DNA of 44,676 bases, from contig JABUTA010000002.1 of assembly GCA_021443845.1 (NCBI GenBank), positions 9,308-53,983 on the forward strand, read 5' to 3'. Position numbers and translations under genes: made by a program. Positions 13,892-37,381 of the stretch are shown here, one piece after another (position 1 is the first letter of the stretch; each line of letters opens with the position of its first letter). Below the pieces are notes generated by a model. That model was not told the origin of the DNA. It saw only the letters and a list, made by a program, of their open reading frames with translations, and searched no databases. The stretch is from Parasporobacterium sp. GTDB lineage: Bacteria > Bacillota > Clostridia > Lachnospirales > Lachnospiraceae.

Positions 13892-14329
13892 TTATCTGCA
13901 GAGGAGCATTCTTCTCTTATTCTCAACGCCGAACATATGCGCCATGTTGCCCATGCCTGAACCATCAGCTTCTGCCTCAAGTGCACCGTTATAATTAAGC
14001 ACCCATCCAAAATCCATGACTACATCATGATAGCCCACAGAAAGCCCGCCTTCACAGGGCACCTTTACCGTGATGGCTGTGCGGAACTGCCAGTATTTTT
14101 CCGTATCAAACATTTCCTCTCTGGTATAATCAAGGCCATTATACACATAAGTCAGAGAATCTCTGTCATACACTTTACCATCCACTTTAACATTACCGAA
14201 ACGGCACTGGGTGAACCATAATCCCTTGTAGTATTTAGGTGTGAATTTGAATTCAAAACCTGTTATATTGCCCTTCTCATCATAAGTATTATGAAAACCT
14301 CTCTGCTGAATTGACTGAAATTCCAACAT
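13892..14329 (-). CDS. C-glycoside deglycosidase beta-subunit-like protein (DgpB / DUF6379 type)
   Basis: 145-aa protein with SIQQRGFHNTYDEKGNITGFEFKFTPKYYKGLWFTQCR...VKVDGKVYDRDSLTYVYNGLDYTREEM; directly downstream (18 nt) of the TIM-barrel alpha subunit. Family from recall; needs HMM check. Confidence 0.72.
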   Translation of the reverse strand: MLEFQSIQQRGFHNTYDEKGNITGFEFKFTPKYYKGLWFTQCRFGNVKVDGKVYDRDSLTYVYNGLDYTREEMFDTEKYWQFRTAITVKVPCEGGLSVGYHDVVMDFGWVLNYNGALEAEADGSGMGNMAHMFGVENKRRMLLCR

Positions 14330-14347
14330 ATTCCGAACCCTCCTTCT

Positions 14348-15256
14348 TTAATAACCCAGTATATTCTTCATCATGATCTGATGGCGGCGAACCTGATCCG
14401 GAATTATTTCCATCGCCTTGCCGAAGTTTTCAAAACTTTCTTCTGCAAAAAATCTGATAGGTCCTTCATATTCGGAAAGAAGATCCCCGCTCCATCCGTT
14501 ATCTATCATGAGCTGAATAACTTCTCTGTAGGGGATGGTTTCCTCTTCGAAGTTTTCATTGATATTAACAAACTTTGTATGGCAGGACCTGCTGTAAGGA
14601 AGGAAGTCAACTATTTCCTCAGGCTTTGTAATATCCTTATAGTCCGACATTACTATAGGTCCGAATCCTTCAGGCTGTTTAAACTGGAAAGTGCCGAAAT
14701 CAATATTGAAGCCGAAATGAGATGTACCTGTTCTTTTTATGAAATCCAGATACTCATCACGTATATGGGGAGTATGTAAAGTTGTGGGAAGATGTACTTC
14801 ATTCTGCATCATTACATCATATTTTTCGGCCCAGGGAAGGGCTTTTTCTATATAAGACTGCCAGCCCGGTTCAGGATCACACATAAAATTTGTACATGTG
14901 ATTTTTGTACGCAGGGACGTGAATCCAAGCATATGTGCAAGTTTGAAATCAGTTTTCAGTTCTTCTACAACTTCTTCATCAGTCATAGCCGGGCCCCTGC
15001 GGAGATGATTTTCTGCCCAGTGTCCCAGTTCTGATGGACGCAGATTATATTTTTCGCATAATCCCCAGTACTTATCTATCCACTCAGATGAGGGATTCGG
15101 ATAGTTGTCAATATAGCTTGTAAGAAGCTCAAAACAGGTTGCACCTGTGTCATAAGCTTCTTCAAAACAGTCTTCAAGTGTCATGCATCTGCCCATGAGA
15201 TTATGATAACTGTAGAAAGTTATGCCTCTCCGGGGACGGCCTTTTTCAATACCCAT
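14348..15256 (-). CDS. C-glycoside deglycosidase alpha-subunit-like, sugar phosphate isomerase/epimerase TIM-barrel (DgpC type)
   Basis: AP-endonuclease-2/xylose-isomerase-like barrel: GITFYSYHNLMGRCMTLEDCFEEAYDTGATCFELL; candidate metal ligands QNEVH, NIDFG, CHTKF, SEYEG (E-D-H-E pattern). Confidence 0.75.
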   Translation of the reverse strand: MGIEKGRPRRGITFYSYHNLMGRCMTLEDCFEEAYDTGATCFELLTSYIDNYPNPSSEWIDKYWGLCEKYNLRPSELGHWAENHLRRGPAMTDEEVVEELKTDFKLAHMLGFTSLRTKITCTNFMCDPEPGWQSYIEKALPWAEKYDVMMQNEVHLPTTLHTPHIRDEYLDFIKRTGTSHFGFNIDFGTFQFKQPEGFGPIVMSDYKDITKPEEIVDFLPYSRSCHTKFVNINENFEEETIPYREVIQLMIDNGWSGDLLSEYEGPIRFFAEESFENFGKAMEIIPDQVRRHQIMMKNILGY

Positions 15257-15294
15257 ATTTTGTACCTCCTATATTTCAGACATCATTGTCAGTA

Positions 15295-16065
15295 TCACTT
15301 TCCCTGCCTGATGTCCAGATATTCGATTATTGTTTTAATTGCTGCTCCCATAACGGCATAATCCTGGAATCTGTGATCTGCCTTTTCAAATGGGATAAAA
15401 TCTATTGCATTATTTTCCGAAAATTCCATCACTGTTTCTATCGGAACAACTTCATCCTTTACTCCGTGAAGTATCAGCATCCTGTCCGCATAGTCCAGAT
15501 AATCATGACCGGTAATGTCATTTGTTCTGAGATCCTCCATAAACTGCAGATTTGCATTTATTTTCCTGTCGAAACCCACCTGAATGTCTTTTCCCTTGAG
15601 AAGTTTTTCATATTCGTCCGATTTCATTATACGGCGTAACATTACATCATACATTCTAACAGCAGGACACCTGAATACTGCCTTTTTAAAGGGCATGCCA
15701 TGTTCTGCAATATATTTAAAAAACAGATACCCACCGAAGCTTGTGGCATAAACGTATATATCATCCGTATTAAACTGTTTCGCAGCATACTCCAGCACTA
15801 TATCGATATATGTGCTGCAATCTTCGAGAAGCAGCTTCTTCTTTACATCATCACCATGACATGGCCAGTTGAATGTAATCACTGCTGCAGTCTTTACCCT
15901 TGAAAGCAGATTTTCCGCAAATCTTTCTGCAGCACGGTTATCCTTATGCCCTCCGAAACCATGCCCGAATATAACGACCGCGGATATATTTCTTATTTCG
16001 TTATAATATATTTTGCTTTTAATGCTATGGTGCAGTTCATTAATATCAAAATATCTCCTGTTCAT
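15295..16065 (-). CDS. Alpha/beta hydrolase (serine hydrolase)
   Basis: VVIFGHGFGGHKDNRAAERFAENLL, nucleophile elbow YATSFGGYLF, MLILHGVKDEVVPIE, KADHRF. ATG overlaps upstream stop (TAATG). Confidence 0.85.
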   Translation of the reverse strand: MNRRYFDINELHHSIKSKIYYNEIRNISAVVIFGHGFGGHKDNRAAERFAENLLSRVKTAAVITFNWPCHGDDVKKKLLLEDCSTYIDIVLEYAAKQFNTDDIYVYATSFGGYLFFKYIAEHGMPFKKAVFRCPAVRMYDVMLRRIMKSDEYEKLLKGKDIQVGFDRKINANLQFMEDLRTNDITGHDYLDYADRMLILHGVKDEVVPIETVMEFSENNAIDFIPFEKADHRFQDYAVMGAAIKTIIEYLDIRQGK

Positions 16066-17045
16066 TATATCCACTTCATTCTCTTATAAAACTCAACCAT
16101 GGCATGAGCGGTTTCAGCTGCAGGACGCGGTGCATATCCAAGGTCCTTTACTGCCAATTCGCTGGAATGTACTGGTTTTTCATTGAGCCTCGCAATTGTA
16201 TACCGGGTAAACACAGGCTCCTTTTTCTTCAGTCTCATAAAGGGCTCATATACTGCTGCCGCTGCCCTCATAGCCCATACAGGAATGTACCACTTTATTT
16301 TTTTCAGGCCTGCTTCTTTCCTCATCATATTTACGAAATCGGATATATCACAGTACTCATTTGACAGGATATAACTTTCACCTTTCCGTCCTACGGAAAG
16401 TGCCTCAACCGCTGCTTTTGCAACATCCCTGCTGTCGGTTATTTCACATGCCCCCCTGATAAAGGGAGCGTATCTGTGCCTGAGACATCTTATAAAAGCA
16501 GAAGTGACAAAACCTTTTCTGTAGTCATCAGGTCCCATTACCGTACAGGGGAGCAGAATACATGCATCAAGTCCTTCCGAAGCTGCTTTGATCACCAGTC
16601 TGGAGGCCCTGGCTTTTGTTTTTGCATAGCCGCCTCTTACCCGGTCCGAATCATAGTATGGATGTACCATTACTCCGTCCTGTCCCACTGCAGACTCAAT
16701 TGCACTTATATATACGAGGCCTGCATTTTTTTCTCTGCAGATTTCTACGATATTTTTTGTTCCGAGAGTATTGACTCTGTATAACTTATCCGTAATTTTT
16801 CTTCTGACGGACATAAATGATGCAGCATGGATTACTTTTATTTCTCCATCCACATCAAATATCTCATTGAGTGACTTCTTTTTCGTAATATCACCGGTAT
16901 ATACTTTTGCTCCCAGTTCCTCCAGAAGAGGTTTTGTTTTCTCGGATCTTATAAGGCAGCGGGGCGTAATACCTCTGCCCAGAAGTTCCTTCACGATTGC
17001 GAATCCCAGGACTCCTCCGGCTCCGGTCACGATATATTCAGCCAT
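16065..17045 (-). CDS. NAD-dependent epimerase/dehydratase (extended SDR)
   Basis: YIVTGAGGVLGFAIVKELLGRG nucleotide-binding motif; YAKTKARA catalytic YxxxK; RVNTLGTKNIVEICRE. Confidence 0.88.
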   Translation of the reverse strand: MAEYIVTGAGGVLGFAIVKELLGRGITPRCLIRSEKTKPLLEELGAKVYTGDITKKKSLNEIFDVDGEIKVIHAASFMSVRRKITDKLYRVNTLGTKNIVEICREKNAGLVYISAIESAVGQDGVMVHPYYDSDRVRGGYAKTKARASRLVIKAASEGLDACILLPCTVMGPDDYRKGFVTSAFIRCLRHRYAPFIRGACEITDSRDVAKAAVEALSVGRKGESYILSNEYCDISDFVNMMRKEAGLKKIKWYIPVWAMRAAAAVYEPFMRLKKKEPVFTRYTIARLNEKPVHSSELAVKDLGYAPRPAAETAHAMVEFYKRMKWI

Positions 17046-17085
17046 AATACTTCCTCCTCACCGCAGAATAACATCATTAATGATT

Positions 17086-18225
17086 TCACATTTCTACCCA
17101 GCAGGATCCGTTCTGAATCGACTTAACTGCTGCATCCACGAACCTGACACCGTTTATTCCGGCATCTATCGTTGGATAATCCTTTGCAGGTTCTGCATCA
17201 GGACATTCCTTCAGTTTAAGATAGTCTTCTATTACATTTTTGTAAATATTGGCAAATGCCACCATAAATCCCTCAGGGTGTCCCGCAGGCAGATGTGTCA
17301 TGGAAGCCGCTTTTATTCCGTTCAGATAAGGATTTCCCCTGGTAATTACTCTGGCAGGCTCGCCTTTAGGGGAGTATATGAGGTTGTCCGGCTCATGCTG
17401 GTTCCATTCAATATATCCCTCGGTTCCGCAGACTCTGATCTTCAGTCCATTACCGTTTCCTGACGCAATCTGTGTTACCCAGAACGAACCGTTAACTCCG
17501 TTATCAAACTGCACCAGGAGATTTGAATTGGTCTCCAGCTGTTTTCCGTAATAATCAGCCGTTGCAAGGAGCCTCTTTATCCTGAGGCCTGTGATATAAT
17601 TTACCATATATTCAATATGAGTACCTATGTCTCCCAGAGCATTTGCCTTGCCGCATTTTGCAGGATCCAGTCTCCATACATACCTGCCGGAATCACCGGT
17701 CACGGCATCCAGCAGCCAGTCCTGCACATATTCACCGTTTACTGCCATAATGGTACCGATCATGCCGCTTTTTATCATTTCGGCAGCTACTTTAACCATT
17801 ACATATCCCATATATGTATAGGTGACTGCAAAAAAAAGTTTTTTATCTTCGACAATAGCCTTAAGTTCTTCAGCTTCCTCTATTGTAAAACACAGGGGTT
17901 TTTCACATATAACATTAATTCCCGCTTCAAGAAATGTCTTTGCTATCTCATAATGGGTATCGTTCGGTGTCACTATACTTACAAACTCGATTCCGTCGCT
18001 GCGCCGGCTCTCCGCTTCGGCCATTTCTTTATAGGAATCATATATCCTGTCATTGTCAATGTCACAGTAATCTCCTGTCTGAAGATTTTTTTCTCTGTCC
18101 CTAGAGGAAAAACATCCTGCAGCAAGCTCGGCACAAGCATTAACAGATAATGCATTCCTGTGAACATTGCCAATGAATGATTCAAGATGTCCGCCTACCA
18201 TTCCAAATCTTACTTTAGTTTTCAT
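17086..18225 (-). CDS. Gfo/Idh/MocA family oxidoreductase (DgpA-like putative glycoside 3-oxidase)
   Basis: VRFGMVGGHLESFIGNVHRNALS (GxxGG..xFIG.VHR type N-terminus), EFVSIVTPNDTHYEIAKTFLEAGINVICEKPLCFT, DIGTHIEYMVNYITG; good RBS GGAGGGG. Confidence 0.85.
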   Translation of the reverse strand: MKTKVRFGMVGGHLESFIGNVHRNALSVNACAELAAGCFSSRDREKNLQTGDYCDIDNDRIYDSYKEMAEAESRRSDGIEFVSIVTPNDTHYEIAKTFLEAGINVICEKPLCFTIEEAEELKAIVEDKKLFFAVTYTYMGYVMVKVAAEMIKSGMIGTIMAVNGEYVQDWLLDAVTGDSGRYVWRLDPAKCGKANALGDIGTHIEYMVNYITGLRIKRLLATADYYGKQLETNSNLLVQFDNGVNGSFWVTQIASGNGNGLKIRVCGTEGYIEWNQHEPDNLIYSPKGEPARVITRGNPYLNGIKAASMTHLPAGHPEGFMVAFANIYKNVIEDYLKLKECPDAEPAKDYPTIDAGINGVRFVDAAVKSIQNGSCWVEM

Positions 18226-21150: not shown

Positions 21151-23661
21151 TCAATATTCAATAACTTCTATACTGCCTGACTTCACTCCGTTCACAAAAA
21201 TATCAGCCAGCCACGGATCAAACTGGGTTCCTTTATTTCTTTCAATTTCCTCAAGCGCACTTTCAACACTCATACTGTATTTATATGACCGTTTTGAAAC
21301 CATGGCATCAAAAGCATCTGCAATAGACAGACATCTGGCGCCTATAGGAATATATTCTCCCTTTATTCTTCTCGGATATCCGGTTCCGTCATATTTTTCA
21401 TGATGTCCAAGAACCGCAGGAATCACATAATCCAGGTCCGGCAGATGACGTATCATTTCAATCGAACGTTCAACATGCTGTCTCATCACACTGAATTCCT
21501 CATCGGTAAGAATCCCCTCCTTGGACAATATAGCATCCGGAATGCCGATTTTTCCTATATCATGCAGAAGTCCGGCCTGCCTTACTACCTCTACCAGTTC
21601 CTCATTCAGACCGGCCAGCTGTGCAATCCTGACAGCATATTTTGATACGCATTGTGAGTGATTGAAGGTGTAATGGTCCTTGGCATCAATAGCTGCAGTA
21701 AGGGCATATATCGTTGAATAAAGTTCACTGATGTTATCCCCTTTATTTTCCTGCCGGTCATCCTTCATATTCACAGTGAATACCGCTATATCATTTTTTC
21801 CCTTCTGCTTGATTCTGAAAACAGCCATGTTGGCATATGAGATCAGCTGATTCATATTTGTAGCTGAGTAGGGATATGTGCAGATTCCGGCAGAAAATGT
21901 AAGGAATTTCTTTGTGGCTTCCGGACTTTTCTCAATTGTGTCAGCCAGAAGTTCCCTCACGTCTTCTGCAATTCTCACAGCCTGTGCACTGTCACACTGC
22001 GGAAGAAGTACGCCGAATTCCTTTCCGCTGTATCTGGCGGTAAGTCCTCTGGCACCGACTATAGTCCTTATCATTTCGGTAAACCCCTTAAGTATCCTGT
22101 CTCCTTCTGCCTCACCGTACAGTTCATTGTAAAGGCTGAAATCATCAAGATTAAACAGGATCAATGTTACAGGAGATTTCGTCTTATCATTAAGAGCCGC
22201 CTCAACAGCTCTGATAAGGGCTCGTCTGTTATATGCTCCTGTCAGAAGGTCACAGTTTGCCTCCCGCTTCATCTGGGCATATAACCGTGCGTTTTTGATC
22301 ACCATTGACGCAACCGAAGCAAGCGAACTGAGAAAACTGATATCTTCGTATGTAAAGTCTGATTTTCTGCCGCTCTTTCCTGAAAACACACTGACTCCCA
22401 TTACATGATCTCCATCCATGAATGGAAGGATATATCTGGCATTAACCGATTCAAACATCTTTTTCTCAGCTTCCCACATACCTCTGTATGCCGAAGACCG
22501 TTTGAAATCATCATAAAATACGCCCTCTCCTGTTTTTTTCAGTTTATCAATAACAGGATTATCAGCAGATATGGTCAACGATCTGTCAAGACTGCCTATT
22601 TCAGAAGTCCCTATATAACTGCGCTCACTTTCAGAAAACATCGCAATATGGATTGATTCAGCCGCAATCATATCTTTTGATACCTGATAGAATCTTGAAA
22701 GCACATCCTTCATTTCAAGTGAAGAATTAACTGCCACGGAAAACCTGCGGACTTCCTCATTCCTTCTTTCGCTTTCACGGATGAACAGCTTTCTCAGAAG
22801 GCTGTTAAGAAGTATGTATAATGCGACAGCAACAATTGAACATATAAGAGCTACAAGTACGGTGGGTTTTCTTATTACACCCCCGAATATATTGTCTACC
22901 AGTAATATCAGTTTATCCCCATAATGAGCAAAAAGAGCTGCAGTGGCTACAAGGGACAGAATAAACACTGCACCGGAGGATGCAACCTGCCCTACGGCAT
23001 AAATACGTTTTTTGCAGAATGCATAATAAATCAGGCACGCGTTGATCATACAGGCAAGTGTATCATTCGGAAAAGTATTCATTGCAGGAATCATATCCAG
23101 AAGGACTCCTGCAAGCATGATGAGCATTCCGACCAGCAGCGGCATAATGTACTTCCACTGCACCATGTCATCCATAATGCTGGCTCTGACCTCAAATACT
23201 ATACTTATGATAATTATTATTGAGAAAAGTATGGGAATTAATGACCATATATAAACATCATATTTGAAAATGTATTCTCCGTCTACATACTCCATGCGGG
23301 CATTTCCGACAAATACATTGAAAAAGTTCAGTATTACAAGGACGGTTGTTATGATGCCGTATATCAGCTTGATAAAACTGCCTTTGCGTTTTGTGTATGA
23401 TGTGGCCAGCAGATAGTACAGGTAAGGTACAAGAAACAGACCGGTCAGAGATATTTCCCACCAGAATTCAGTACCCGGACCAAGACCGAGGCGCATGCAC
23501 AGAGAGCCCGCACACCACAGGATAAAGGCCACGAGAAGAGCCATGAATGACTTTATTTCTTTAGACTTTTTTGCCGTTATCAGGGTGAATAACAGAAAGA
23601 TGTTGCAAAGAAGGGCAAATGTTGGCACAGAAGTGAAAAGTATCTCATTTACTGAGGACAA
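21151..23661 (-). CDS. Membrane sensor with GAF, degenerate GGDEF and HD-GYP domains (putative c-di-GMP phosphodiesterase)
   Basis: Multi-TM N-terminus (7TM-histidine-kinase-like), GAF-like region, GGDEF domain with SGKEF in place of GGDEF, HD-GYP motif LLHDIGKIGIPD...HHEKYDGTGYP. Likely start TTG 23661 given AGGAGG spacing; GTG at 23670 also possible. Confidence 0.88.
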   Translation of the reverse strand: MSSVNEILFTSVPTFALLCNIFLLFTLITAKKSKEIKSFMALLVAFILWCAGSLCMRLGLGPGTEFWWEISLTGLFLVPYLYYLLATSYTKRKGSFIKLIYGIITTVLVILNFFNVFVGNARMEYVDGEYIFKYDVYIWSLIPILFSIIIIISIVFEVRASIMDDMVQWKYIMPLLVGMLIMLAGVLLDMIPAMNTFPNDTLACMINACLIYYAFCKKRIYAVGQVASSGAVFILSLVATAALFAHYGDKLILLVDNIFGGVIRKPTVLVALICSIVAVALYILLNSLLRKLFIRESERRNEEVRRFSVAVNSSLEMKDVLSRFYQVSKDMIAAESIHIAMFSESERSYIGTSEIGSLDRSLTISADNPVIDKLKKTGEGVFYDDFKRSSAYRGMWEAEKKMFESVNARYILPFMDGDHVMGVSVFSGKSGRKSDFTYEDISFLSSLASVASMVIKNARLYAQMKREANCDLLTGAYNRRALIRAVEAALNDKTKSPVTLILFNLDDFSLYNELYGEAEGDRILKGFTEMIRTIVGARGLTARYSGKEFGVLLPQCDSAQAVRIAEDVRELLADTIEKSPEATKKFLTFSAGICTYPYSATNMNQLISYANMAVFRIKQKGKNDIAVFTVNMKDDRQENKGDNISELYSTIYALTAAIDAKDHYTFNHSQCVSKYAVRIAQLAGLNEELVEVVRQAGLLHDIGKIGIPDAILSKEGILTDEEFSVMRQHVERSIEMIRHLPDLDYVIPAVLGHHEKYDGTGYPRRIKGEYIPIGARCLSIADAFDAMVSKRSYKYSMSVESALEEIERNKGTQFDPWLADIFVNGVKSGSIEVIEY

Positions 23662-25285
23662 AACTCTCACCTCCTCTGCTGAATACTCCGCCTGCTGTAT
23701 TTCTGATATCTATGATATCAGAACCGGAGGGATTGATCCTTCTGATATTTCTGCCGATTTTCTCTTCGTAAGATCTGATGGTTCCTTCCGGAAGTATGGT
23801 TACCTCCAGCGGTTCTCTTCCCAGGAGTCTTTTAAGGTCGTTGAAATCATGGTCATAATGTCTGAAATAGGCACTCATGTGTTCTATCACAAGCTTTTCG
23901 GTAAGAAACAGGCTCTGTTCTGAGGATGAATCTATCTCAGCATACAGATGCATGAATGAGCATTTATTACCGTCATATTCCTTACACGCAAACCAGTCTC
24001 CTACAGGGAGACCCGACATCTGAATAACTCTGTCTATGCTTCTTCTGGTAATCCTCGTAAAACCTGCAATATCAATGACAGAAGGCACTCTGTCCACATA
24101 CTCAAACTGGGGAAGTTTAAGATGATCCTTATCGTTTCCGGTCCGCAGGCATCTGTATATGTCCCCGGGCCTGTAACGCATAAAAGCTCCGCCTTTGAAT
24201 ATTGTAAGAACAAGTTCATACTCTGTATTTGCACACACCTCATCCATGAGATACGTATTCGGCACATATGAGGGATCTTCTTCATTTCTGAGGACCTCTG
24301 ACACAGGTATAAATTCATAGAATGCTGTATCAGGGAAGAAAACAAGACCATCCCTGGACCATGTTTCTGTGGCAAGGCAGCAGGTTTCGGTTCCTCCATG
24401 GATTTCGAGAGGTTTCATCCCCCATGCCTCCTCGAGTTCATCCTTGAACATGGCTGTATCTGTACCCACCGCCACAAATCCTTTAAGTTTAAACAGGTCC
24501 TTCGGCTGGATTTCACGTTTATCGCGTTTTGACTGGTATTTTGCCTTTATGATCCTGTAAAGCATTCTGGGGCTCATACCTGCCAGTCCGGAAAGCCCGA
24601 ATCCTGAAGACTTTGTATATTCTCCGAAATTCTTTGTAATAGCATAAACTATGCTGCTCATACCGAAGAACTGATCAAGTCCTTTTTTTACAGCAAGTTT
24701 GAATCCGGCTTTCTGCTGCTGTGAAAAGCTCAGGGATTCTGCATCTTTTAATGATGGCATGAATCTGAAATCCATTTCACCTGCAACAAGTATCGGAAAA
24801 AGTCCGGTTGCATAAGGAAGCGGGGCCAGACCGTAAAATGCCTTTGCATCCGGTTCCACATTGAACTTGCCCTTTTCGGTTGATGTGGAAAGAATCATGG
24901 CGCTTATAACATTTCTGGTATATACATCCAGCATTTCCCTTGTATACGGGGCTGTCTTTACAGGTCTGCTTCCGCTTTCCCATGTTGTTTCAAGCCACAC
25001 AAGGGGTTTACCCGGAAGCATTTCCTCATGCCTGTTCAGAAGAACATTCTGATAATCTTCATATTTTGTAAGGGGTACCATTTTACGGAATTCTTCCACA
25101 TTTTCAGGTTTTGCATCCTTCATTATGGATTTTCCGAGTTCAGAAGCAGCAAAAATACTGATCTGCTCATCAAGCAGTCTGAACTGTATTTCCATGAATT
25201 CAGACAGCTCCAGATCAAGAAAGCCGCAATATTCATCCCATAGCCTGCCTTTCGGCATTGTTTTCAGCTTTTCCTTAAAAAGCAT
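23645..25285 (-). CDS. GH3 auxin-responsive-promoter family acyl-adenylating enzyme
   Basis: MPKTKYEDYQNVLLNRHEEM-like N-terminus (MVPLTKYEDY), TTWESGSRPVKTAPYT, GLSGLAGMSPRMLYRIIKAK, EIHGGTETCCLATETW, MRYRPGDIYRC. Confidence 0.8.
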   Translation of the reverse strand: MLFKEKLKTMPKGRLWDEYCGFLDLELSEFMEIQFRLLDEQISIFAASELGKSIMKDAKPENVEEFRKMVPLTKYEDYQNVLLNRHEEMLPGKPLVWLETTWESGSRPVKTAPYTREMLDVYTRNVISAMILSTSTEKGKFNVEPDAKAFYGLAPLPYATGLFPILVAGEMDFRFMPSLKDAESLSFSQQQKAGFKLAVKKGLDQFFGMSSIVYAITKNFGEYTKSSGFGLSGLAGMSPRMLYRIIKAKYQSKRDKREIQPKDLFKLKGFVAVGTDTAMFKDELEEAWGMKPLEIHGGTETCCLATETWSRDGLVFFPDTAFYEFIPVSEVLRNEEDPSYVPNTYLMDEVCANTEYELVLTIFKGGAFMRYRPGDIYRCLRTGNDKDHLKLPQFEYVDRVPSVIDIAGFTRITRRSIDRVIQMSGLPVGDWFACKEYDGNKCSFMHLYAEIDSSSEQSLFLTEKLVIEHMSAYFRHYDHDFNDLKRLLGREPLEVTILPEGTIRSYEEKIGRNIRRINPSGSDIIDIRNTAGGVFSRGGESFVLSK

Positions 25286-30291: not shown

Positions 30292-31092
30292 TCAGTCAAG
30301 GAGTTCCTTTGCCTTTGTATAAGGAAATACAGGACCTTCCAGGCATACATATGTCTCATTTATCTTACAGTGTCCGCACTTTCCTACTGCACACTGCATT
30401 TTCCGTTCGAATGATACCCATATCTTATCATCCGTTACTCCGCCTTTTTTGCACGCTTCAGCAGCAAATCTGAACATTACGGGAGGGCCTACTATGATCA
30501 CGTTATAGTTCCCGTTGAAGCTTTCAAATGGCACCTCAGGTATGTATTTTGTGACCATTCCCTGACGGAATCCCGGAGCCTCCGTATTGTCCAGACAGTA
30601 ATATGTATGGAATTTCGGATTCTGTGCAAACTTTACCAGGTCTTCTCTGAAAAGAACAGAATCCGCATCCTTGAATCCGACTATTATATATACCGATTCA
30701 ATCTCATCCGGGTGATCATAAAAATACTGAAGTGTAGTCCTTGTAGGTGAAAATCCCGTTCCTCCGGCAACCACTACAAGGGTCTTATGCTTAAATTCCT
30801 CTACAGGAAATGCATTACCGTAAGGACCTCTCATGAACAGGGTATCGCCTTCATCAAGACCGAATATTCCGTTTGTAAGCCTGCCGACTTTTCTGATGGT
30901 AAATTCCACATATCCCTCACCCATACCGCTGACAGATATAGGTGCTTCACCCACCTTCGGGATTGAGAGCATGAAGAACTGTCCGTGCTTAACTTCCTGT
31001 CCATGCCATTCTACTCTGAAGGTATGCTCTGCCTTTGTTTCCGCAAGGTTTTTCAATATCTTATGAGGTGACGGTAATACTATATTATTCAT
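30292..31092 (-). CDS. FAD/NAD(P)-binding electron-transfer subunit (anaerobic sulfite reductase subunit B-like)
   Basis: FRVEWHGQEVKHGQFFMLSIPKVGEAPISVS (FNR-like), LVVVAGGTGFSPTRTTLQYF, C-terminal FeS motif MQCAVGKCGHCKINETYVCLEGPVF. Confidence 0.87.
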   Translation of the reverse strand: MNNIVLPSPHKILKNLAETKAEHTFRVEWHGQEVKHGQFFMLSIPKVGEAPISVSGMGEGYVEFTIRKVGRLTNGIFGLDEGDTLFMRGPYGNAFPVEEFKHKTLVVVAGGTGFSPTRTTLQYFYDHPDEIESVYIIVGFKDADSVLFREDLVKFAQNPKFHTYYCLDNTEAPGFRQGMVTKYIPEVPFESFNGNYNVIIVGPPVMFRFAAEACKKGGVTDDKIWVSFERKMQCAVGKCGHCKINETYVCLEGPVFPYTKAKELLD

Positions 31093-32122
31093 TCCTGCCC
31101 TCCTCCTTCATCTGATCAACTATATCCGCCAGACCGTTTACTGCCTCAGTAAAATGAATATCCTGAGGACATCTCATATCGCATCTGCCGCAGCCTACGC
31201 ACATATGCCCCTGTCCGAATCTCAGATTGTAATCATACATTTTATGCATGACCTTGAATCTCATATTATCCCCATGTTTTGAACGTACGCCATGACCTCC
31301 GGCCATAACCGTATAAGATTCAAGCATACAGGATGACCATGAGCGCCTTCTTTCACCATCCGTATCCGTTTCATTATATATGACATCTACTGTGTCAAAG
31401 CAGCTGCATGTCGGGCATACTGTATTGCACCCGCCGCAGGCTATACATTTTTCATCAAACTGTCTCCAGAAATCAGATTCATTTATTGCTTTGATAACTG
31501 ATCTGTCGGTAATGTCCGGAACCCTGACTTTCCTGATGTTTTCCTCAACAAATCCCGGTGTGAATTCTGTTTCCTGCCGGCCTTCAAAATACCCGGACAG
31601 AGCATCATCCCCGATGGTGAACGTCATGCCCTCTTCAGTGAATCTTACAGCGTTATCATACTCTGCCCTGTTTGTCCCCATAGATACGCAGAAACAGGTT
31701 TCGAAGCTTTCCCTGCACTCCATCAATATAAACTTAACCCTGTCCCTGAGCCTTTTATAATAGTGATCCGGATTATTTCCGTTACCCAGGAACATATTGT
31801 CAAGACGTGCAAATCCGTTTATATCACATGCCCTCAGCATTACTACGATATCTCTGTCGTCAGCCAGCTCACTTTCCCTGACTTCACTGCCTGTAAAGTA
31901 CAGCAGTGTCTGTATAATAGGATATACCGTCATTTTCGGCGAAAAATCAGACTTCCTGTCATAAACAATATCCCTGGATTTTCTGATCTCACTGTATCTT
32001 ACTTCCTCTTTATTTTCTCCGCGGTTTCTTTTCTTTAAGAGAACAGGCGCAAATACTCTGTACTTTTCCCGCATGGTCTCAAGGATTTCATCCATGGTTT
32101 CATAATTTACAAAATATCCCAT
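31085..32122 (-). CDS. 4Fe-4S dicluster protein (anaerobic sulfite reductase subunit A-like)
   Basis: CIACGGCNTVCPTCSCFDTVDVIY and CVGCGRCDMRCPQDIHF ferredoxin motifs, N-terminal AsrA/HydB-like region (VVMLRACDINGFARLDNMFLG). Confidence 0.87.
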   Translation of the reverse strand: MGYFVNYETMDEILETMREKYRVFAPVLLKKRNRGENKEEVRYSEIRKSRDIVYDRKSDFSPKMTVYPIIQTLLYFTGSEVRESELADDRDIVVMLRACDINGFARLDNMFLGNGNNPDHYYKRLRDRVKFILMECRESFETCFCVSMGTNRAEYDNAVRFTEEGMTFTIGDDALSGYFEGRQETEFTPGFVEENIRKVRVPDITDRSVIKAINESDFWRQFDEKCIACGGCNTVCPTCSCFDTVDVIYNETDTDGERRRSWSSCMLESYTVMAGGHGVRSKHGDNMRFKVMHKMYDYNLRFGQGHMCVGCGRCDMRCPQDIHFTEAVNGLADIVDQMKEEGRNE

Positions 32123-32748
32123 ACCTTTGCCTCCTGGCTTATAAAGCCCCTGGTTATCATACCCACAGCCTTATAAAAATCTGTCCGGGCATACTTGATC
32201 ACGTCATTACAGAATACCGGAACCCATTTCCTGATATGCCTGTCAAAGAATTCCTTCTGGTCCTTCAGAGCCTTTTCATATGCCGCCTCATTTTCCGAAT
32301 CTGCTGCAGATGCTGCTTCTTCACACAGAACCGCCATGAATTCAAATTCCAGTCCCACATGATCATCCGGAATCTTATACATGCCGGCTTTTGCCTTCAG
32401 TCCTCTGGCAGCATAATACTTTTCAGCATCGGAAGTACAGGATTCATTCATCATTTTCTTTTTGCTGGTATAAATGGATTCGTAAGGGAATGCTGCAAGT
32501 CCTGTTGCCTCACCTGCTGCCAGAAATACCTTCGCATAATCCACTTCGGTATCAATTATGTTTTCTTCAGATGCTTCTGCCAGATATGCTTTCAGCTTAG
32601 CATAACCATCACCGATATCAGATTCGTCTGATTCCGGGAATGTCATTTTCTTCATATCATTAAGGAGTTTTTTATCAACTTCCAGAATAAATATTCTTGC
32701 CAGAAATCTGTACACATTTCCCCTGGCTGACATAAGTGCTTTATTCAT
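32107..32748 (-). CDS. TorD-like molybdoenzyme maturation chaperone
   Basis: All-helical; VDYAKVFLAAGEATGLAAFPYESIYTSKKKMMNE..., DHVGLEFEFMAVLCEEA; ATGA overlap with upstream FeS gene. Confidence 0.85.
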   Translation of the reverse strand: MNKALMSARGNVYRFLARIFILEVDKKLLNDMKKMTFPESDESDIGDGYAKLKAYLAEASEENIIDTEVDYAKVFLAAGEATGLAAFPYESIYTSKKKMMNESCTSDAEKYYAARGLKAKAGMYKIPDDHVGLEFEFMAVLCEEAASAADSENEAAYEKALKDQKEFFDRHIRKWVPVFCNDVIKYARTDFYKAVGMITRGFISQEAKVWDIL

Positions 32749-33368
32749 CAGATCTCACCTCTCATCTTTCCGGCATATATAAACGGAAGTTCTTCTATCC
32801 ATCTGCAGTCACGAAGAATATATCTTGCCTGAGGATTATTGCCATTTGGATCGGCAAGGGTATATACATGTCCTTCATTTTCCCTTATAAGCACTGATAC
32901 CTCACTGTCAGGATCATTGATATCCCCGTAGTGCAGTGCTCCGCCTGCACAGTTGCGCACGCATGCCGGAGGAAGTCCGTCTGCCCTTCGTCCTGAACAG
33001 ATATCGCATTTGTCGGATACATTCAGTTCCTTATTGAAAATAATACACTGATAAGGACAGCTCTTCATGCAGCTCTGACAACCTATGCACATATCCCTGT
33101 CAATATATACCACCCCGTCATCTCCTGATTTATAGCATGCACCTGTAGGACATACTTCTGTACAGGATGGATTTTCACACTGCTGGCACATTACCGGCAT
33201 AAAATACATTTCAATATCCGGATATTTTCCTGTAGGTCCCATGGAATACATTTTGCTTCTGGAGGGACCCAATGAAATACTGTGTTCTGTCTTGCATGCT
33301 ACCTGGCATCCTCCATGGCAGCCGATGCAGCGGTCAAGCTCTACTAATATGATATACTGTGATTCCAT
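32748..33368 (-). CDS. DmsB-like 4Fe-4S ferredoxin subunit of Mo oxidoreductase
   Basis: Multiple Cx2Cx3-11Cx3C motifs: CIGCHGGCQVACK, CQQCENPSCTEVCPTGA, CIGCQSCMKSCPY, CDICSGRR..PACVRNC. Confidence 0.92.
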   Translation of the reverse strand: MESQYIILVELDRCIGCHGGCQVACKTEHSISLGPSRSKMYSMGPTGKYPDIEMYFMPVMCQQCENPSCTEVCPTGACYKSGDDGVVYIDRDMCIGCQSCMKSCPYQCIIFNKELNVSDKCDICSGRRADGLPPACVRNCAGGALHYGDINDPDSEVSVLIRENEGHVYTLADPNGNNPQARYILRDCRWIEELPFIYAGKMRGEI

Positions 33369-33385
33369 TTTTCAACCCTCCTCTC

Positions 33386-36037
33386 TTAATGTTCGATAGG
33401 AAGCCATGTCTTAAAATCTTCAGGCTTCTCCCAGATTCCCTCAGGGGCTCCTTCTTCTGCCTTATACACTTTAACCATGAATCCCCTGAGTGTATAGGTT
33501 CCCACCACATCATTAAACGGTGCTGAACCTTTTGTAAGAATATTTACATTCATTTCCTTCCAGCCGTGGGTCGGTGTATTCAGCTTTTCAGGATTCCAGA
33601 AACGTTCCATACACACAGAACCCGGCATCATGCCCTCTGTTACGTATGCTTTTGCTCTTATCTTTCCTCTCAGCGATTCAATCCATACCCAGTCCCCTGT
33701 CTTTATTCCGTTCTTTTCAGCATCTGATGTATGTATCCATATTTCCGCCACCGGCATTATTTCTCTCATGGCAGCGTTGTTTCTGAGAGTTGAGTGCTGG
33801 TAGAAGGGTACACGGCCGTTCGTCATAATAAGCGGGAACTCCCTGCATAATTCCGGATCATTTACAGGACCTTCTATCGGTTCCAGATAATACGGCAGTG
33901 GATCATAATCCTTTGATGCCGGAGGAAGTTCATGATAGGAGAACGGTTTTCCTGTTCTTGCCAGGGTTATCATACTGTCAAGGTAAATCTCGATCTTTTT
34001 GGATGGTGTATCAAAGCCTTTGTATTTTCCGGTTTTCTCATCTATCCATTTATAAACATAATATGATCTCCACTCATTCCTCGGCAGATATTCAAACGGG
34101 GCCTTTTCCTTTACTTCCTTCCATGTCATGCCTATATGCTCTGTACAATGGTTGAAGAACTCATCCATGCTGTCCCAATAAGCCAGATCATCCCCCATGA
34201 ATTCAGGATCAAAGGCTTTCTGACACATTTCATGTCCCATATCCGCACATTTCCTTGCCAGCTTTGACCAGAGCAGGGTCTCATCAACAGTTTCCCACAG
34301 ACTTACAACTGCCTGACGGGCAACAATGGTATTGCAGGTTTCCACAAGCATATCCGTTTCCAGCCACTCTGCTGTGGGCAGGAGGATATCCGCATATGCA
34401 GAGAATGATGTAGGGTAAATAAAGGAATGTACAATGTAGTCCAGATGCTTTATTGCTTCTTCTATTTTGGAAGCTTCAGCTACTACACCGAACTTATTGC
34501 CTGATCTGTCCAGCCATACCTTTAAAGGATAAGGCTTACCTGTAATAACCGCATCCAGGATTGCAGCAGGCTGTCCTGCCCACCAGATGTGAAGTCCCTT
34601 GTGTTCAATGCCGCCCAGCCTCTTCTCCAGCATTTCCTTCGGAAGAAGACGTTCTGCCTGGGGCACAGGATAATTGGGCATTCTTAATGTTCCGCTGGTG
34701 CGGAATCTCTGAAGAAGTGAACCCGGACGTTCAACATTGCCCACGAGACAGTCAATGATACATGCAGCCATTGCTGCCTGCTCGGAGTTAGGTGTCTGGT
34801 CTGTGGCAACGCCCAGTGCCAGTCCTCCGGGCTGATTATCCGTAAACAGAAGAACAGCCTTTTCAATGCGTTCTGCATCTACGCCGCATACCTGTGCCGT
34901 ATGCTCCAGAGTCCATTCCGCCACCCTTTCTCTGAGAAGTCGGAAGCCTGTCTTATATATCTTTCCGTCAACTTCATACTCACCGTCCAGTTCAACATCA
35001 AGATTCTCATTCCAGGGATATTCCAGAGGCTGCATGGAATCTGTTTTTTTATCCCATACCATGAATGTATCGGGAACGGAAGGATCCTCACTTTTAACAG
35101 GACGCAGCATGAATTTTGTTTCGGTATCTACCAGATACGGGGAATCTGTCCATTTCATGACGAATTCCTCATCATATTTTTTATTGTCGATTATGTACTT
35201 TATCCAGCACAGCATCAGGGCAACGTCTGTACCCGGTCTTACGGGAAGCCATATTGTTGCCTTTGCGGCATCCGGAGTAAAACGGGGATCTATGCAGATG
35301 GTCTTTACTCCCCTGGCACGAAGTTCATTTACGGCACGTCCGCCGCTGGCCGGACATGAATATGAAGGATCTGTTCCCCATAATACCAGACACTTTATCG
35401 GGGTCTCATCAGGGAAATACAGTTCAAGGGCATTGGAATCTGCTATTGAAGGATCCACACCGCCGTACATCATGGTATAACCCAGTACTCTCGGAAGGTA
35501 GCACTGGGCACATCCGGGTTCAAACCAGTTCGGAGTGCCGAATATATTGCAGAAACGGCATACGCTCCAAACTTCCGGATTACCGCCGCCGCCGGTGGTT
35601 CCGAATACTGCTTCCGGCCCATATTCATCCCTTACCCTCATAAGCTCCGATGCGATTTTTGTAAGGGCATCATCCCAGGTCAGACGGTGCCATTTGCCGC
35701 CTCCTCTTTCACCTACTCTCTCAAGAGGATATTTGTTTCTGTTAGGGTTATACAGTGCCTGTATTCCAGCCAGTCCCTTTGCGCACATTTTTCCTCTGCT
35801 CATGGGATCTTCAGGATTGCCTTCCAGCTTCACCACACGGCCGTTCTTTACATGAACAAGTACACCGCAGTTGGCAATGCATGCACGGCATGCTGTTTTT
35901 ACGATTATCTCCTCTCCATCGGTAGCAACCGTATAGGGTTCACAGGAGTCAAAGAAATGTTCTCCCCTGACACAATCCGCCAGACCTCCGATCTGTATGG
36001 AATTGAGATATTTATCGGAATTGCTGTTTACTTCCAT
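33386..36037 (-). CDS. Molybdopterin-dependent oxidoreductase catalytic subunit (DMSO reductase superfamily), cytoplasmic
   Basis: N-terminal 4Fe-4S CRACIANCGVLVHVKNGRVVKLEGNPEDPMSRGKMCAKG, WDDAL, ELRARGVKTICIDPRFTPDAAKA, IYPTSFSAYADILLPTAEWLE, MTNGRVPFYQHSTLRN, NGIKTGDWVWIES. No twin-arginine signal visible. Confidence 0.93.
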   Translation of the reverse strand: MEVNSNSDKYLNSIQIGGLADCVRGEHFFDSCEPYTVATDGEEIIVKTACRACIANCGVLVHVKNGRVVKLEGNPEDPMSRGKMCAKGLAGIQALYNPNRNKYPLERVGERGGGKWHRLTWDDALTKIASELMRVRDEYGPEAVFGTTGGGGNPEVWSVCRFCNIFGTPNWFEPGCAQCYLPRVLGYTMMYGGVDPSIADSNALELYFPDETPIKCLVLWGTDPSYSCPASGGRAVNELRARGVKTICIDPRFTPDAAKATIWLPVRPGTDVALMLCWIKYIIDNKKYDEEFVMKWTDSPYLVDTETKFMLRPVKSEDPSVPDTFMVWDKKTDSMQPLEYPWNENLDVELDGEYEVDGKIYKTGFRLLRERVAEWTLEHTAQVCGVDAERIEKAVLLFTDNQPGGLALGVATDQTPNSEQAAMAACIIDCLVGNVERPGSLLQRFRTSGTLRMPNYPVPQAERLLPKEMLEKRLGGIEHKGLHIWWAGQPAAILDAVITGKPYPLKVWLDRSGNKFGVVAEASKIEEAIKHLDYIVHSFIYPTSFSAYADILLPTAEWLETDMLVETCNTIVARQAVVSLWETVDETLLWSKLARKCADMGHEMCQKAFDPEFMGDDLAYWDSMDEFFNHCTEHIGMTWKEVKEKAPFEYLPRNEWRSYYVYKWIDEKTGKYKGFDTPSKKIEIYLDSMITLARTGKPFSYHELPPASKDYDPLPYYLEPIEGPVNDPELCREFPLIMTNGRVPFYQHSTLRNNAAMREIMPVAEIWIHTSDAEKNGIKTGDWVWIESLRGKIRAKAYVTEGMMPGSVCMERFWNPEKLNTPTHGWKEMNVNILTKGSAPFNDVVGTYTLRGFMVKVYKAEEGAPEGIWEKPEDFKTWLPIEH

Positions 36038-36129: not shown

Positions 36130-36397
36130 TGTGTTGTGCTGCCTGCCTAAAATATATATATCTGAATGGCGTATATGACGAGCCGTCTTAATTCAGGGAT
36201 TATTCGTCGTGAATTTGCGGACGACGGATTCGCACTTCAGGTGCGTAATCCGTCAGGGTAATCTGAGCAGTAAACGCATCAGGCGTTTACTGCGAATTTA
36301 CCCGGTCCGCACAATACATGACGAATAATTCCATGAATTACAGGCGCAGTCATCCTTAGCCATTCAGATATATATTTTTTAGGCAGACCCCACATCA
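36130..36397. repeat. ~270-bp nested imperfect palindrome (foldback / MITE-like or structured regulatory element)
   Basis: Outer arms CTGCCTAAAATATATATATCTGAATGGC (36143-36170) vs GCCATTCAGATATATATTTTTTAGGCAG (36359-36386); second-level arms AATTCAGGGATTATTCGTCGTGAATTTGCGGAC vs GTCCGCACAATACATGACGAATAATTCCATGAATT; inner hairpins at 36224-36253 and 36268-36292. Confidence 0.85.
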
Positions 36398-36472
36398 TAC
36401 ATATAATTTAATGTTAAATAATGAATATGTAAAATTACTAATAATCATAAATGTATTCCATTTCAGAATCAA

Positions 36473-37381
36473 TTACATATTCTTTATGATATTAATCAAT
36501 TCCTTCACAGCCCTCTTGGTATTCCCCTTTCTCCAGGCCATTACGAACCCGCTGTGAGTACCTTTAATGGGAATCCTGGCATGATCGTTTTCATTCATAT
36601 CCAGATAATATTCATCACATATGAATACATCCTTTTCAGTCATGAGATTAAGACCCTGGGAATTGGAAGCCTCCACATATCTGGTAACTTCAGGTATGAA
36701 TCCCTTTGCCCTGAATATATCCATGAGCATACGGTTATACTCTGAAAGAACCCGGGGAGAAATGCTTATAAAATCCATATCCCGCAGGTCTTCCGGAGTC
36801 AGTTCGCATCTCGATGCCAGGGGACAGGTCTTCAGAACACAGGCGCAATGGGGAGTGTCACCCACCTTTATCCATTCCAGATTATCATAATGCTTTCCCT
36901 CAAAGTCATACAATATTGAAAATACAATATCCACTTCATTTTTGATGAGCATCTCCCTGACAGTCTGGACATAGTTGGTTTCAATCTTTATTTCCAGGCC
37001 TTCCATCCTGTCATTCAGCTTCCTCAGGGCAGGCATCAGGAATTTTTCCGGTTTAAAAGAATTAAGGAATCCGATGCTCAGTGTATTTCTCTTATCGGCA
37101 TTAAGTATATGTGCCAGCTCTATATTCTTTTCTATTTCCGCAACTACGCCATTCAATGAATCATACAGGAATTTGCCTTCTCTGGTCAGCACCAGTTTTT
37201 TATTGACTCTCTTGAAAAGCTTCAGATCCAGCTGGCCCTCCAGGCTCTGGATTTTTTTTGTAAGTGTGGGCTGGGTCAGATTAAAATATTCTGCCGATCT
37301 GGTTATGCTTTCATTTTCGGCAACCTTCAGAAAATACTGGATCTGTCCCAGGCTGATATTTCTTATATCCACATTCCTCAT
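36473..37381 (-). CDS. LysR family transcriptional regulator
   Basis: ISLGQIQYFLKVAENESITRSAEYFNLTQPTLTKKIQSLEGQLDLKLFKRVNKKLVLTREG HTH plus LysR substrate-binding domain. Confidence 0.94.
   Translation of the reverse strand: MRNVDIRNISLGQIQYFLKVAENESITRSAEYFNLTQPTLTKKIQSLEGQLDLKLFKRVNKKLVLTREGKFLYDSLNGVVAEIEKNIELAHILNADKRNTLSIGFLNSFKPEKFLMPALRKLNDRMEGLEIKIETNYVQTVREMLIKNEVDIVFSILYDFEGKHYDNLEWIKVGDTPHCACVLKTCPLASRCELTPEDLRDMDFISISPRVLSEYNRMLMDIFRAKGFIPEVTRYVEASNSQGLNLMTEKDVFICDEYYLDMNENDHARIPIKGTHSGFVMAWRKGNTKRAVKELINIIKNM

Follow-up and report, generated by a model that had tools for sequence, protein, structure and literature searches.

A predicted soluble, NAD(P)H-linked molybdenum reductase encoded by paired AsrAB and DMSO-reductase-superfamily genes in gut clostridia

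AsrA and AsrB, two subunits of anaerobic sulfite reductase, normally carry electrons from NAD(P)H to a sirohaem subunit, AsrC. The dehydroxylases of the dimethyl sulfoxide (DMSO) reductase family, which are molybdenum (Mo) enzymes, have been characterized essentially from gut Coriobacteriia and are linked to respiration (PMC11574389, PMC12771579), and dehydroxylase homologs were noted in Desulfitobacterium and Clostridium ljungdahlii in an eLife paper. In the dopamine dehydroxylase (dadh) cluster, activity depends on the TorD-like DadhF, the hypothetical protein DadhE, and the NapGH-like DadhG/H (PMC11887054). In this study, we analyzed a 44,676-nt stretch of DNA (hereafter, the window) from Parasporobacterium sp. 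(contig JABUTA010000002.1, positions 9,308-53,983), whose source is a metagenome-assembled genome (MAG) that is 81.6% complete, and focused on an operon of five genes in which a DMSO-reductase-superfamily catalytic subunit (MoA), an iron-sulfur (FeS) beta subunit (FeSB), and a TorD-like chaperone are encoded together with AsrA and AsrB. Taken as a whole, the operon is best read as encoding a soluble, cytoplasmic, NAD(P)H-dependent Mo reductase born by module exchange, a reading that we consider probable on the strength of the sequence comparisons described below.

The five-gene operon and its conservation

Five co-directional open reading frames were confirmed on the minus strand at 30292-36037, and their Pfam and NCBIfam matches bore out the families to which an initial annotation of the window had assigned them (Table 1). 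That annotation had described the five genes as overlapping, which holds for three of the junctions (1, 16, and 8 bases), while MoA and FeSB are separated by a 17-bp gap. Both AsrA and AsrB scored above the cut-offs of their NCBIfam equivalog families. MoA matched many DMSO-reductase-family NCBIfam models, each below its cut-off, and is therefore not covered by any existing NCBIfam function. No AsrC gene was present in the operon, and no AsrC above the cut-off of 324 bits was found in the MAG of the window, the top match being an 881-aa frame with 106 bits; the absence of AsrC that had been claimed for this locus thus extends to the available genome. Neither was any NiFe hydrogenase subunit encoded in the operon, and the HydB and HydG models scored far below cut-off against AsrA and AsrB. 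No match to a defence system was found. The proposed cytoplasmic location of MoA, without a twin-arginine translocation (Tat) signal, was in agreement with its N-terminus, which lacks the RR motif present in exported relatives.

The cofactor motifs of MoA were examined in an alignment of 18 members. Acetylene hydratase and PsrA have their FeS motif at the same alignment position as the N-terminal [4Fe-4S] motif of MoA. Cys179 was invariant, while Cys176 was replaced by Ser or Ala in L022 and L023; furthermore, Cys179 aligned with the Mo- or metal-ligand Cys of acetylene hydratase, PsrA, and NapA, and with the Cys of the Dadh motif QICKGPR and of the Dodh motif DSCYQPR. As judged from conservation and alignment, the second Cys of EPGCAQC, Cys179, probably coordinates the Mo, and the earlier suggestion of a Cys within EPGCAQCY as the ligand was right in kind.

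A scan of one genome per species yielded 19 loci with relatives of MoA, almost all of which came from gut MAGs assigned to Lachnospiraceae, Oscillospiraceae, and other Clostridiales. The order MoA-FeSB-AsrA-AsrB was kept in 14 other genomes, at about 49-80% identity and without AsrC, and TorD was detected between FeSB and AsrA in 13 of these 14. The pairwise distances of the five proteins were correlated (Mantel r 0.58-0.92), with 0 of 2000 permutations reaching as high a value. This recurrence of the operon, together with the correlated protein distances, indicated that the arrangement is not due to chance. In six relatives (L014, L015, L018, L020, L021, and L022), TorD and AsrA form one in-frame protein, a fusion by which the electron-input subunit is joined to the chaperone of the Mo enzyme. 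At L016:5404-6792, the TorD-AsrA fusion is kept, but its AsrA part no longer has the C-terminal ferredoxin domain, and there is no AsrB.

Genes for Mo cofactor synthesis (MobA/MobB or MoeA) were located near the operon in many relatives, and genes that we take, from our own reading of the sequences, to encode the molybdate transporter ModABC lie near the L007 operon. Only Mo-cofactor or molybdate genes and regulators recurred among the neighbor genes across the relatives, and no recurring catabolic family that might give a clue to the substrate was found among them. Two neighbors were considered and set aside, namely a URO-D/methyltransferase-like gene near L010, L012, and L022, whose score was too weak for an O-demethylase, and a gene near L013 that resembled 4,5-dihydroxyphthalate decarboxylase by eye and had no family match. 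A search of a plasmid collection returned only distant Mo enzymes with ~27% identity, which were uninformative on function.

Placement of MoA and origin of its electron-input module

For the phylogenetic analysis, reference sequences were taken from public genomes: E. lenta DSM 2243 was recognized by a match to published dadh primers (PMC7028382), and Dodh was located by primer match in two genomes taken, by inference, to be Gordonibacter. PDB alignments supplied acetylene hydratase and a partial PsrA sequence. MoA and its relatives formed one clade with a support of 100 in two trees. This clade fell inside a 31-row group together with acetylene hydratase, the Dadh clade, and the Dodh clade (Shimodaira-Hasegawa-like approximate likelihood ratio test, SH-aLRT, 99 in the better tree), and apart from DmsA, YnfE, TorA, NapA, and PsrA, the last of these being represented by a partial sequence only. 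MoA lay outside both characterized dehydroxylase clades, the Eggerthella-type (Dadh) and the Gordonibacter-type (Dodh), and represents a third clade; the phylogeny that the initial annotation had proposed as a check thus placed MoA inside no characterized clade. Three members of the MoA clade are encoded by E. lenta (51, 51, and about 40% identity); their genes lie at about 774.9, 1886, and 3210 kb of the DSM 2243 genome.

The best solved relative of MoA by sequence was acetylene hydratase (2e7z, 210 bits), followed by PsrA, and pyrogallol transhydroxylase gave 33 bits. An AlphaFold model of MoA, built from a shallow alignment and usable at the fold level only (mean predicted local distance difference test score, pLDDT, 65), likewise had acetylene hydratase as its top solved fold match. 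The model scores of MoA against the respective cut-offs were 272/694 bits for PhsA, 236/778 for DmsA, 80/1465 for TorA, and 208/666 for Fdh-alpha. FeSB, whose relatives include PsrB, ArrB, PcrB, and EbdB, was more similar to DadhB (38.5% identity) than to DmsB and YnfG of E. coli (32.5%).

Members of the MoA clade also include exported proteins, which were found in E. lenta, Parvibacter, Deferribacteraceae, and G505, a genome of the same phylum as the organism of the window. These exported members have a Tat signal, and an anchor and/or NapG/NapH-like genes stand beside their FeSB and TorD genes; no Tat signal, membrane anchor, or NapGH-like ferredoxin was found in the window operon. The dadh locus of E. 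lenta holds homologs of the FeSB (49%), TorD (43%), NapG, NapH, anchor, and small hypothetical protein of the exported relatives, and this common gene content matches that of the published dadh cluster (PMC11887054). The machinery common to the MoA family and the catechol dehydroxylases is the best available clue to the chemistry. The small uncharacterized protein accompanies exported members of the clade, and its homolog in the dadh accessory cluster is perhaps DadhE; none was detected next to the operons with AsrAB.

MenD was present in the genomes of G505, E. lenta, and Parvibacter, and no MqnC was detected in any of the clostridial or exported-relative genomes examined. Since MenD occurred in three of the four genomes of exported relatives versus none of the 18 clostridial genomes, a module exchange fits cells without a menaquinone pool.

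To trace the other half of the operon, AsrA was surveyed in 399 sampled genomes of the phylum, 31 of which contained AsrA at E < 1e-60. AsrA, AsrB, and AsrC were encoded side by side at all 29 of the AsrA loci read other than that of the window itself. In a tree of concatenated AsrA and AsrB, the 15 Mo-linked pairs formed one clade (100/100) nested among the AsrC-linked pairs, with seven of which it grouped at 97/94. AsrC was above cut-off in only one of the 20 genomes with the MoA family (G006), in which a normal AsrABC, with a second AsrA adjoining AsrC, and the Mo operon are present at separate places.

The Mo-linked and AsrC-linked groups retain the same FeS-ligand Cys in AsrA and AsrB and differ by almost no residue switches. 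In AsrA, 15 Cys were invariant or nearly so in both groups alike. Seven of these (C99, C136, C143, C145, C239, C241, and C265) lie beside the two ferredoxin motifs. The assignment of this protein to the AsrA family (TIGR02910) therefore stood, while its description as a dicluster protein may undercount, as 15 conserved Cys exceed the need of two clusters and suggest at least one cluster beyond the two usually annotated. These data are most simply read as one recruitment of AsrAB as a working module, which was then co-inherited with MoA. The earlier proposal that AsrAB was recruited to drive a cytosolic Mo reductase has thus held as far as sequence can tell, given the nested AsrAB clade and the missing AsrC.

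Proposed reaction and rival explanations

According to the proposed mechanism, electrons would pass from NAD(P)H to FAD and the [2Fe-2S] cluster in AsrB, from AsrB to the [4Fe-4S] clusters of AsrA, and onward by the four FeSB clusters to the [4Fe-4S] cluster at the N-terminus of MoA, whose Cys179-ligated Mo-bis(molybdopterin guanine dinucleotide) (bis-MGD) site would reduce an organic substrate in the cytosol. MoA would be assembled by TorD. An exported, quinol-linked ancestor with a Tat signal, a membrane anchor, and NapG/NapH-like ferredoxins would have kept MoA, FeSB, and TorD, and would have gained the AsrAB half of anaerobic sulfite reductase in one module exchange, in clostridia in which menaquinone synthesis was not found. 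The comparisons above establish the gene content, the one-time recruitment of AsrAB, the conserved cluster ligands, the clade to which MoA belongs, the accessory-gene homology between the exported relatives and the dopamine dehydroxylase locus, and the distribution of menD. In this scheme, we infer the direction of electron flow, complex formation, the use of NADH versus NADPH, and the direction of the exchange.

As the reaction of MoA, we favor reductive dehydroxylation, which would give the cell an NAD(P)H sink in the cytosol; a phenol of plant origin, or a small molecule like it, would be the most likely substrate. We put this chemistry at slightly short of an even chance. Phenolic dehydroxylation, S/N-oxides, and oxyanions had been listed together as candidates by the initial annotation; dehydroxylation is now ranked above the others because of the clade membership of MoA and the homology to the dopamine dehydroxylase locus. 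With the same wiring, MoA might instead reduce an S-oxide, an N-oxide, polysulfide or thiosulfate, or an oxyanion in the cytosol. Such enzymes dominate the DMSO reductase superfamily, AsrAB first served sulfur chemistry, PhsA and DmsA gave scores below cut-off, and PsrA was the second-best solved relative, but the scores for PhsA, DmsA, and TorA fell far under their cut-offs, MoA grouped with acetylene hydratase and the catechol dehydroxylases and not with DmsA, YnfE, TorA, NapA, or PsrA, and its exported relatives have accessory genes in common with the dadh locus, so that we regard this alternative as rather unlikely. It is improbable that the system works in the oxidizing direction, with MoA oxidizing or hydroxylating its substrate and AsrAB reducing NAD(P)+ in the manner of NAD-linked formate dehydrogenases. 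NAD-binding modules of Mo enzymes can run both ways, and formate dehydrogenase and ethylbenzene dehydrogenase belong to the superfamily; however, formate dehydrogenases carry a His after the Mo-ligand Cys/Sec, where MoA has Tyr180, AsrAB is descended from a reductase feed, and the layout of the exported relatives is typical of terminal reductases.

The close relationship to acetylene hydratase, the best solved relative by both sequence and fold, raises another alternative, in which MoA is a non-redox hydratase or transhydroxylase of the acetylene hydratase or pyrogallol transhydroxylase type and AsrAB only keeps the metal reduced. Asp13, next to the FeS-cluster cysteines, has a role in acetylene hydratase, but this Asp (CDINC) is replaced by Ile in MoA (CIANC), the match to pyrogallol transhydroxylase was very weak, and a dedicated, co-inherited NAD(P)H module exceeds what priming would need, which makes a non-redox function very improbable. 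We give least credence to the explanation that AsrAB goes on serving a sirohaem subunit of the AsrC type, encoded at another place, and that its position by MoA is incidental or shared. An AsrC gene could be missing from the incomplete MAG, but the only genome of the MoA family with AsrC has a second AsrA for it, and 15 genomes preserve the arrangement, some of them with TorD and AsrA fused.

Several observations weigh against the NAD(P)H-dependent reductase proposed here. Approximately unbiased (AU) tests did not separate the MoA clade as sister to Dadh, to Dodh, or to neither; the branch order inside the acetylene hydratase/catechol dehydroxylase group is thus unsettled, and the chemistry is not readable from the tree. 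The Deferribacteraceae MAG has an anchor-like gene, yet neither MenD nor MqnC was found in it. Since AsrABC itself has not been purified (PMC10949509), the electron path through AsrAB is known only by homology. The genomes are draft MAGs, and the absences of AsrC and MenD are provisional. Moreover, L017 lacks AsrAB at the locus and none was found in its genome, L016 has only the truncated, TorD-fused AsrA and no AsrB, and the L019 genome shows no AsrA; the cores of these three loci may accept another donor or may be decaying copies. The substrate, the activity, and the complex are all predictions.

We tentatively suggest that the MoA family represents a third reductive dehydroxylase lineage, located in the cytosol and powered directly by NAD(P)H, which arose by a swap of the quinol module for AsrAB and is widespread in gut clostridia without menaquinone, outside the Coriobacteriia, making phenol dehydroxylation a fermentative rather than a respiratory sink for NAD(P)H. 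If so, an NAD(P)H-tied relative in gut clostridia would provide a cytosolic electron sink to fermenting gut bacteria in which menaquinone synthesis was not found, and more microbes may transform plant phenols. The operon would also offer a clean example of the exchange of an electron-input module between unrelated reductases, with both ancestral forms still visible. The substrate question becomes testable through the three E. lenta genes of the same clade, in a culturable and genetically tractable organism.

Flanking loci and comparison with described systems

Directly upstream of the operon and on the same strand is a gene for a LysR-family regulator. A LysR gene at this position was also observed in L006 (34% identity, same strand) and L007 (divergent), and other relatives have GntR or PucR-like regulators there; given these differing regulators, a role of LysR as a possible regulator of the operon is suggestive only. 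Between the LysR gene and MoA, at 36140-36420, the DNA can form a long, near-perfect hairpin (-141 kcal/mol, z -15), which is a dispersed repeat with 28 matches in the genome (68-100% identity, many of 100-230 bp). It had no Rfam match and is repeated across the genome, and a riboswitch or regulatory element was therefore set aside; the hairpin is probably a palindromic mobile element resembling a miniature inverted-repeat transposable element (MITE).

Further away in the window, genes for a C-glycoside deglycosidase (13892-18225) are surrounded by hydrolase, epimerase, FGGY kinase, and UDP-glycosyltransferase-like genes, and this region is likely a locus for the utilization of plant C-glycosides. 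A plant-glycoside locus had been put forward earlier as a hint to the substrate. The locus is real, but it is located more than 10 kb from the Mo operon and in other operons, and is therefore weak evidence on the substrate of MoA; it makes plant phenolics plausible for the organism, without any link to the operon. Unexpectedly for a clostridium, the gene at 23645-25285 encodes GH3-family domains (auxin-responsive GH3, acyl-adenylating) and adjoins that of a GGDEF-HD protein.

Table 1. Coordinates of the features described in this study. Positions are those of the window, except where a locus handle precedes them.
Feature	Position	Strand	Family, score, or basis
MoA, DMSO-reductase-superfamily catalytic subunit, bis-MGD, N-terminal [4Fe-4S] type, 883 aa	33386..36037	-	PF04879/PF00384/PF01568
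MoA [4Fe-4S] motif C50-x2-C53-x3-C57-x27-C85 then K87 (residues 50-85)	35783..35890	-	all invariant in 18 aligned members
MoA EPGCAQCY (residues 173-180), Cys179 predicted Mo ligand	35498..35521	-	conservation and alignment
FeSB, beta subunit, four predicted [4Fe-4S] clusters, 206 aa, 19 Cys	32748..33368	-	PF13247 (Fer4_11)
TorD-like Mo-enzyme assembly chaperone, 213 aa	32107..32748	-	PF02613 (Nitrate_red_del/TorD), NF003442 81.8 bits
AsrA, ferredoxin-type subunit of NAD(P)H electron-input module, 345 aa	31085..32122	-	TIGR02910 408 bits (cut-off 323)
AsrB, FAD/NAD(P)H-binding subunit, C-terminal [2Fe-2S] motif, 266 aa	30292..31092	-	TIGR02911 315 bits (cut-off 289); PF00175 and PF10418
AsrB four-Cys [2Fe-2S] motif C234, C239, C242, C250 (residues 234-250)	30343..30393	-	invariant in 45 AsrB
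LysR-family regulator	36473..37381	-	PF00126/PF03466
C-glycoside deglycosidase beta subunit	13892-14329		PF19906
C-glycoside deglycosidase alpha subunit, AP_endonuc_2-type	14348-15256		260 bits to PDB 7bvs
GFO/IDH/MocA oxidoreductase	17086-18225
Small uncharacterized protein	L070:12375-13151; L071:8956-9603; L072:5227-5925; L023:8055-8630; L024:7314-8093; L148:4836-5423

Compared with AsrABC (TIGR02910/02911/02912), the AsrA and AsrB of the window belong to the same equivalog families, branch inside them, and keep the cluster ligands, whereas the place of AsrC is taken by the Mo enzyme MoA-FeSB with TorD, and the Mo-linked AsrAB form a clade of their own. A similar reuse is seen in the archaeal sulfhydrogenases I and II, in which the AsrA and AsrB homologs HydB and HydG serve as the NAD(P)H module for a different core; the closest solved relatives of the window proteins are 9nez_B for AsrA and the sulfhydrogenase 1 gamma subunit 9nez_C for AsrB. 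The sulfhydrogenases, however, have a NiFe hydrogenase as their core, and the two proteins of the window gave far higher scores with the AsrA and AsrB models than with those of HydB and HydG.

With the Eggerthella-type enzymes of E. lenta (Dadh, Cadh, and Hcdh), the operon shares the wider MoA clade, a four-cluster beta subunit, an N-terminal [4Fe-4S] motif, and a TorD-like chaperone, and the exported relatives of MoA, but not the window itself, have homologs of the anchor, NapG, NapH, and small protein of the dadh locus. In contrast to these enzymes, MoA lies outside the Dadh clade, is a predicted enzyme, and is encoded with AsrAB in place of a Tat signal, anchor, and NapGH. The Gordonibacter-type enzymes (Dodh and kin) resemble MoA in being soluble, in lacking a Tat signal, and in having a small FeS partner, and Dodh has C-Y-x-P-R at the Mo ligand in common with it. 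They form a separate clade, no AsrAB has been described for them, and their catalytic subunits are without the N-terminal [4Fe-4S] motif (PMC11574389), for which MoA has C50, C53, C57, and C85.

Acetylene hydratase (2e7z), the closest solved structure, has a Cys metal ligand at the same place as MoA, but its reaction needs no net electrons, whereas MoA has a dedicated electron input. The urolithin C dehydroxylase Ucdh of Enterocloster is, like the enzyme proposed here, an NADH-driven Mo dehydroxylase of a gut clostridium (PMC12771579); it belongs to the xanthine oxidase family and uses molybdopterin cytosine dinucleotide (MCD) as its cofactor, while MoA is a member of a different Mo superfamily. 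Searches of the open-access literature turned up no report of a Mo enzyme with AsrAB as its partner. Taken together, these comparisons suggest that the wiring is undescribed and that the kind of enzyme is a known one: within the branch of acetylene hydratase and the catechol dehydroxylases, MoA would be a soluble Mo enzyme wired to NAD(P)H.

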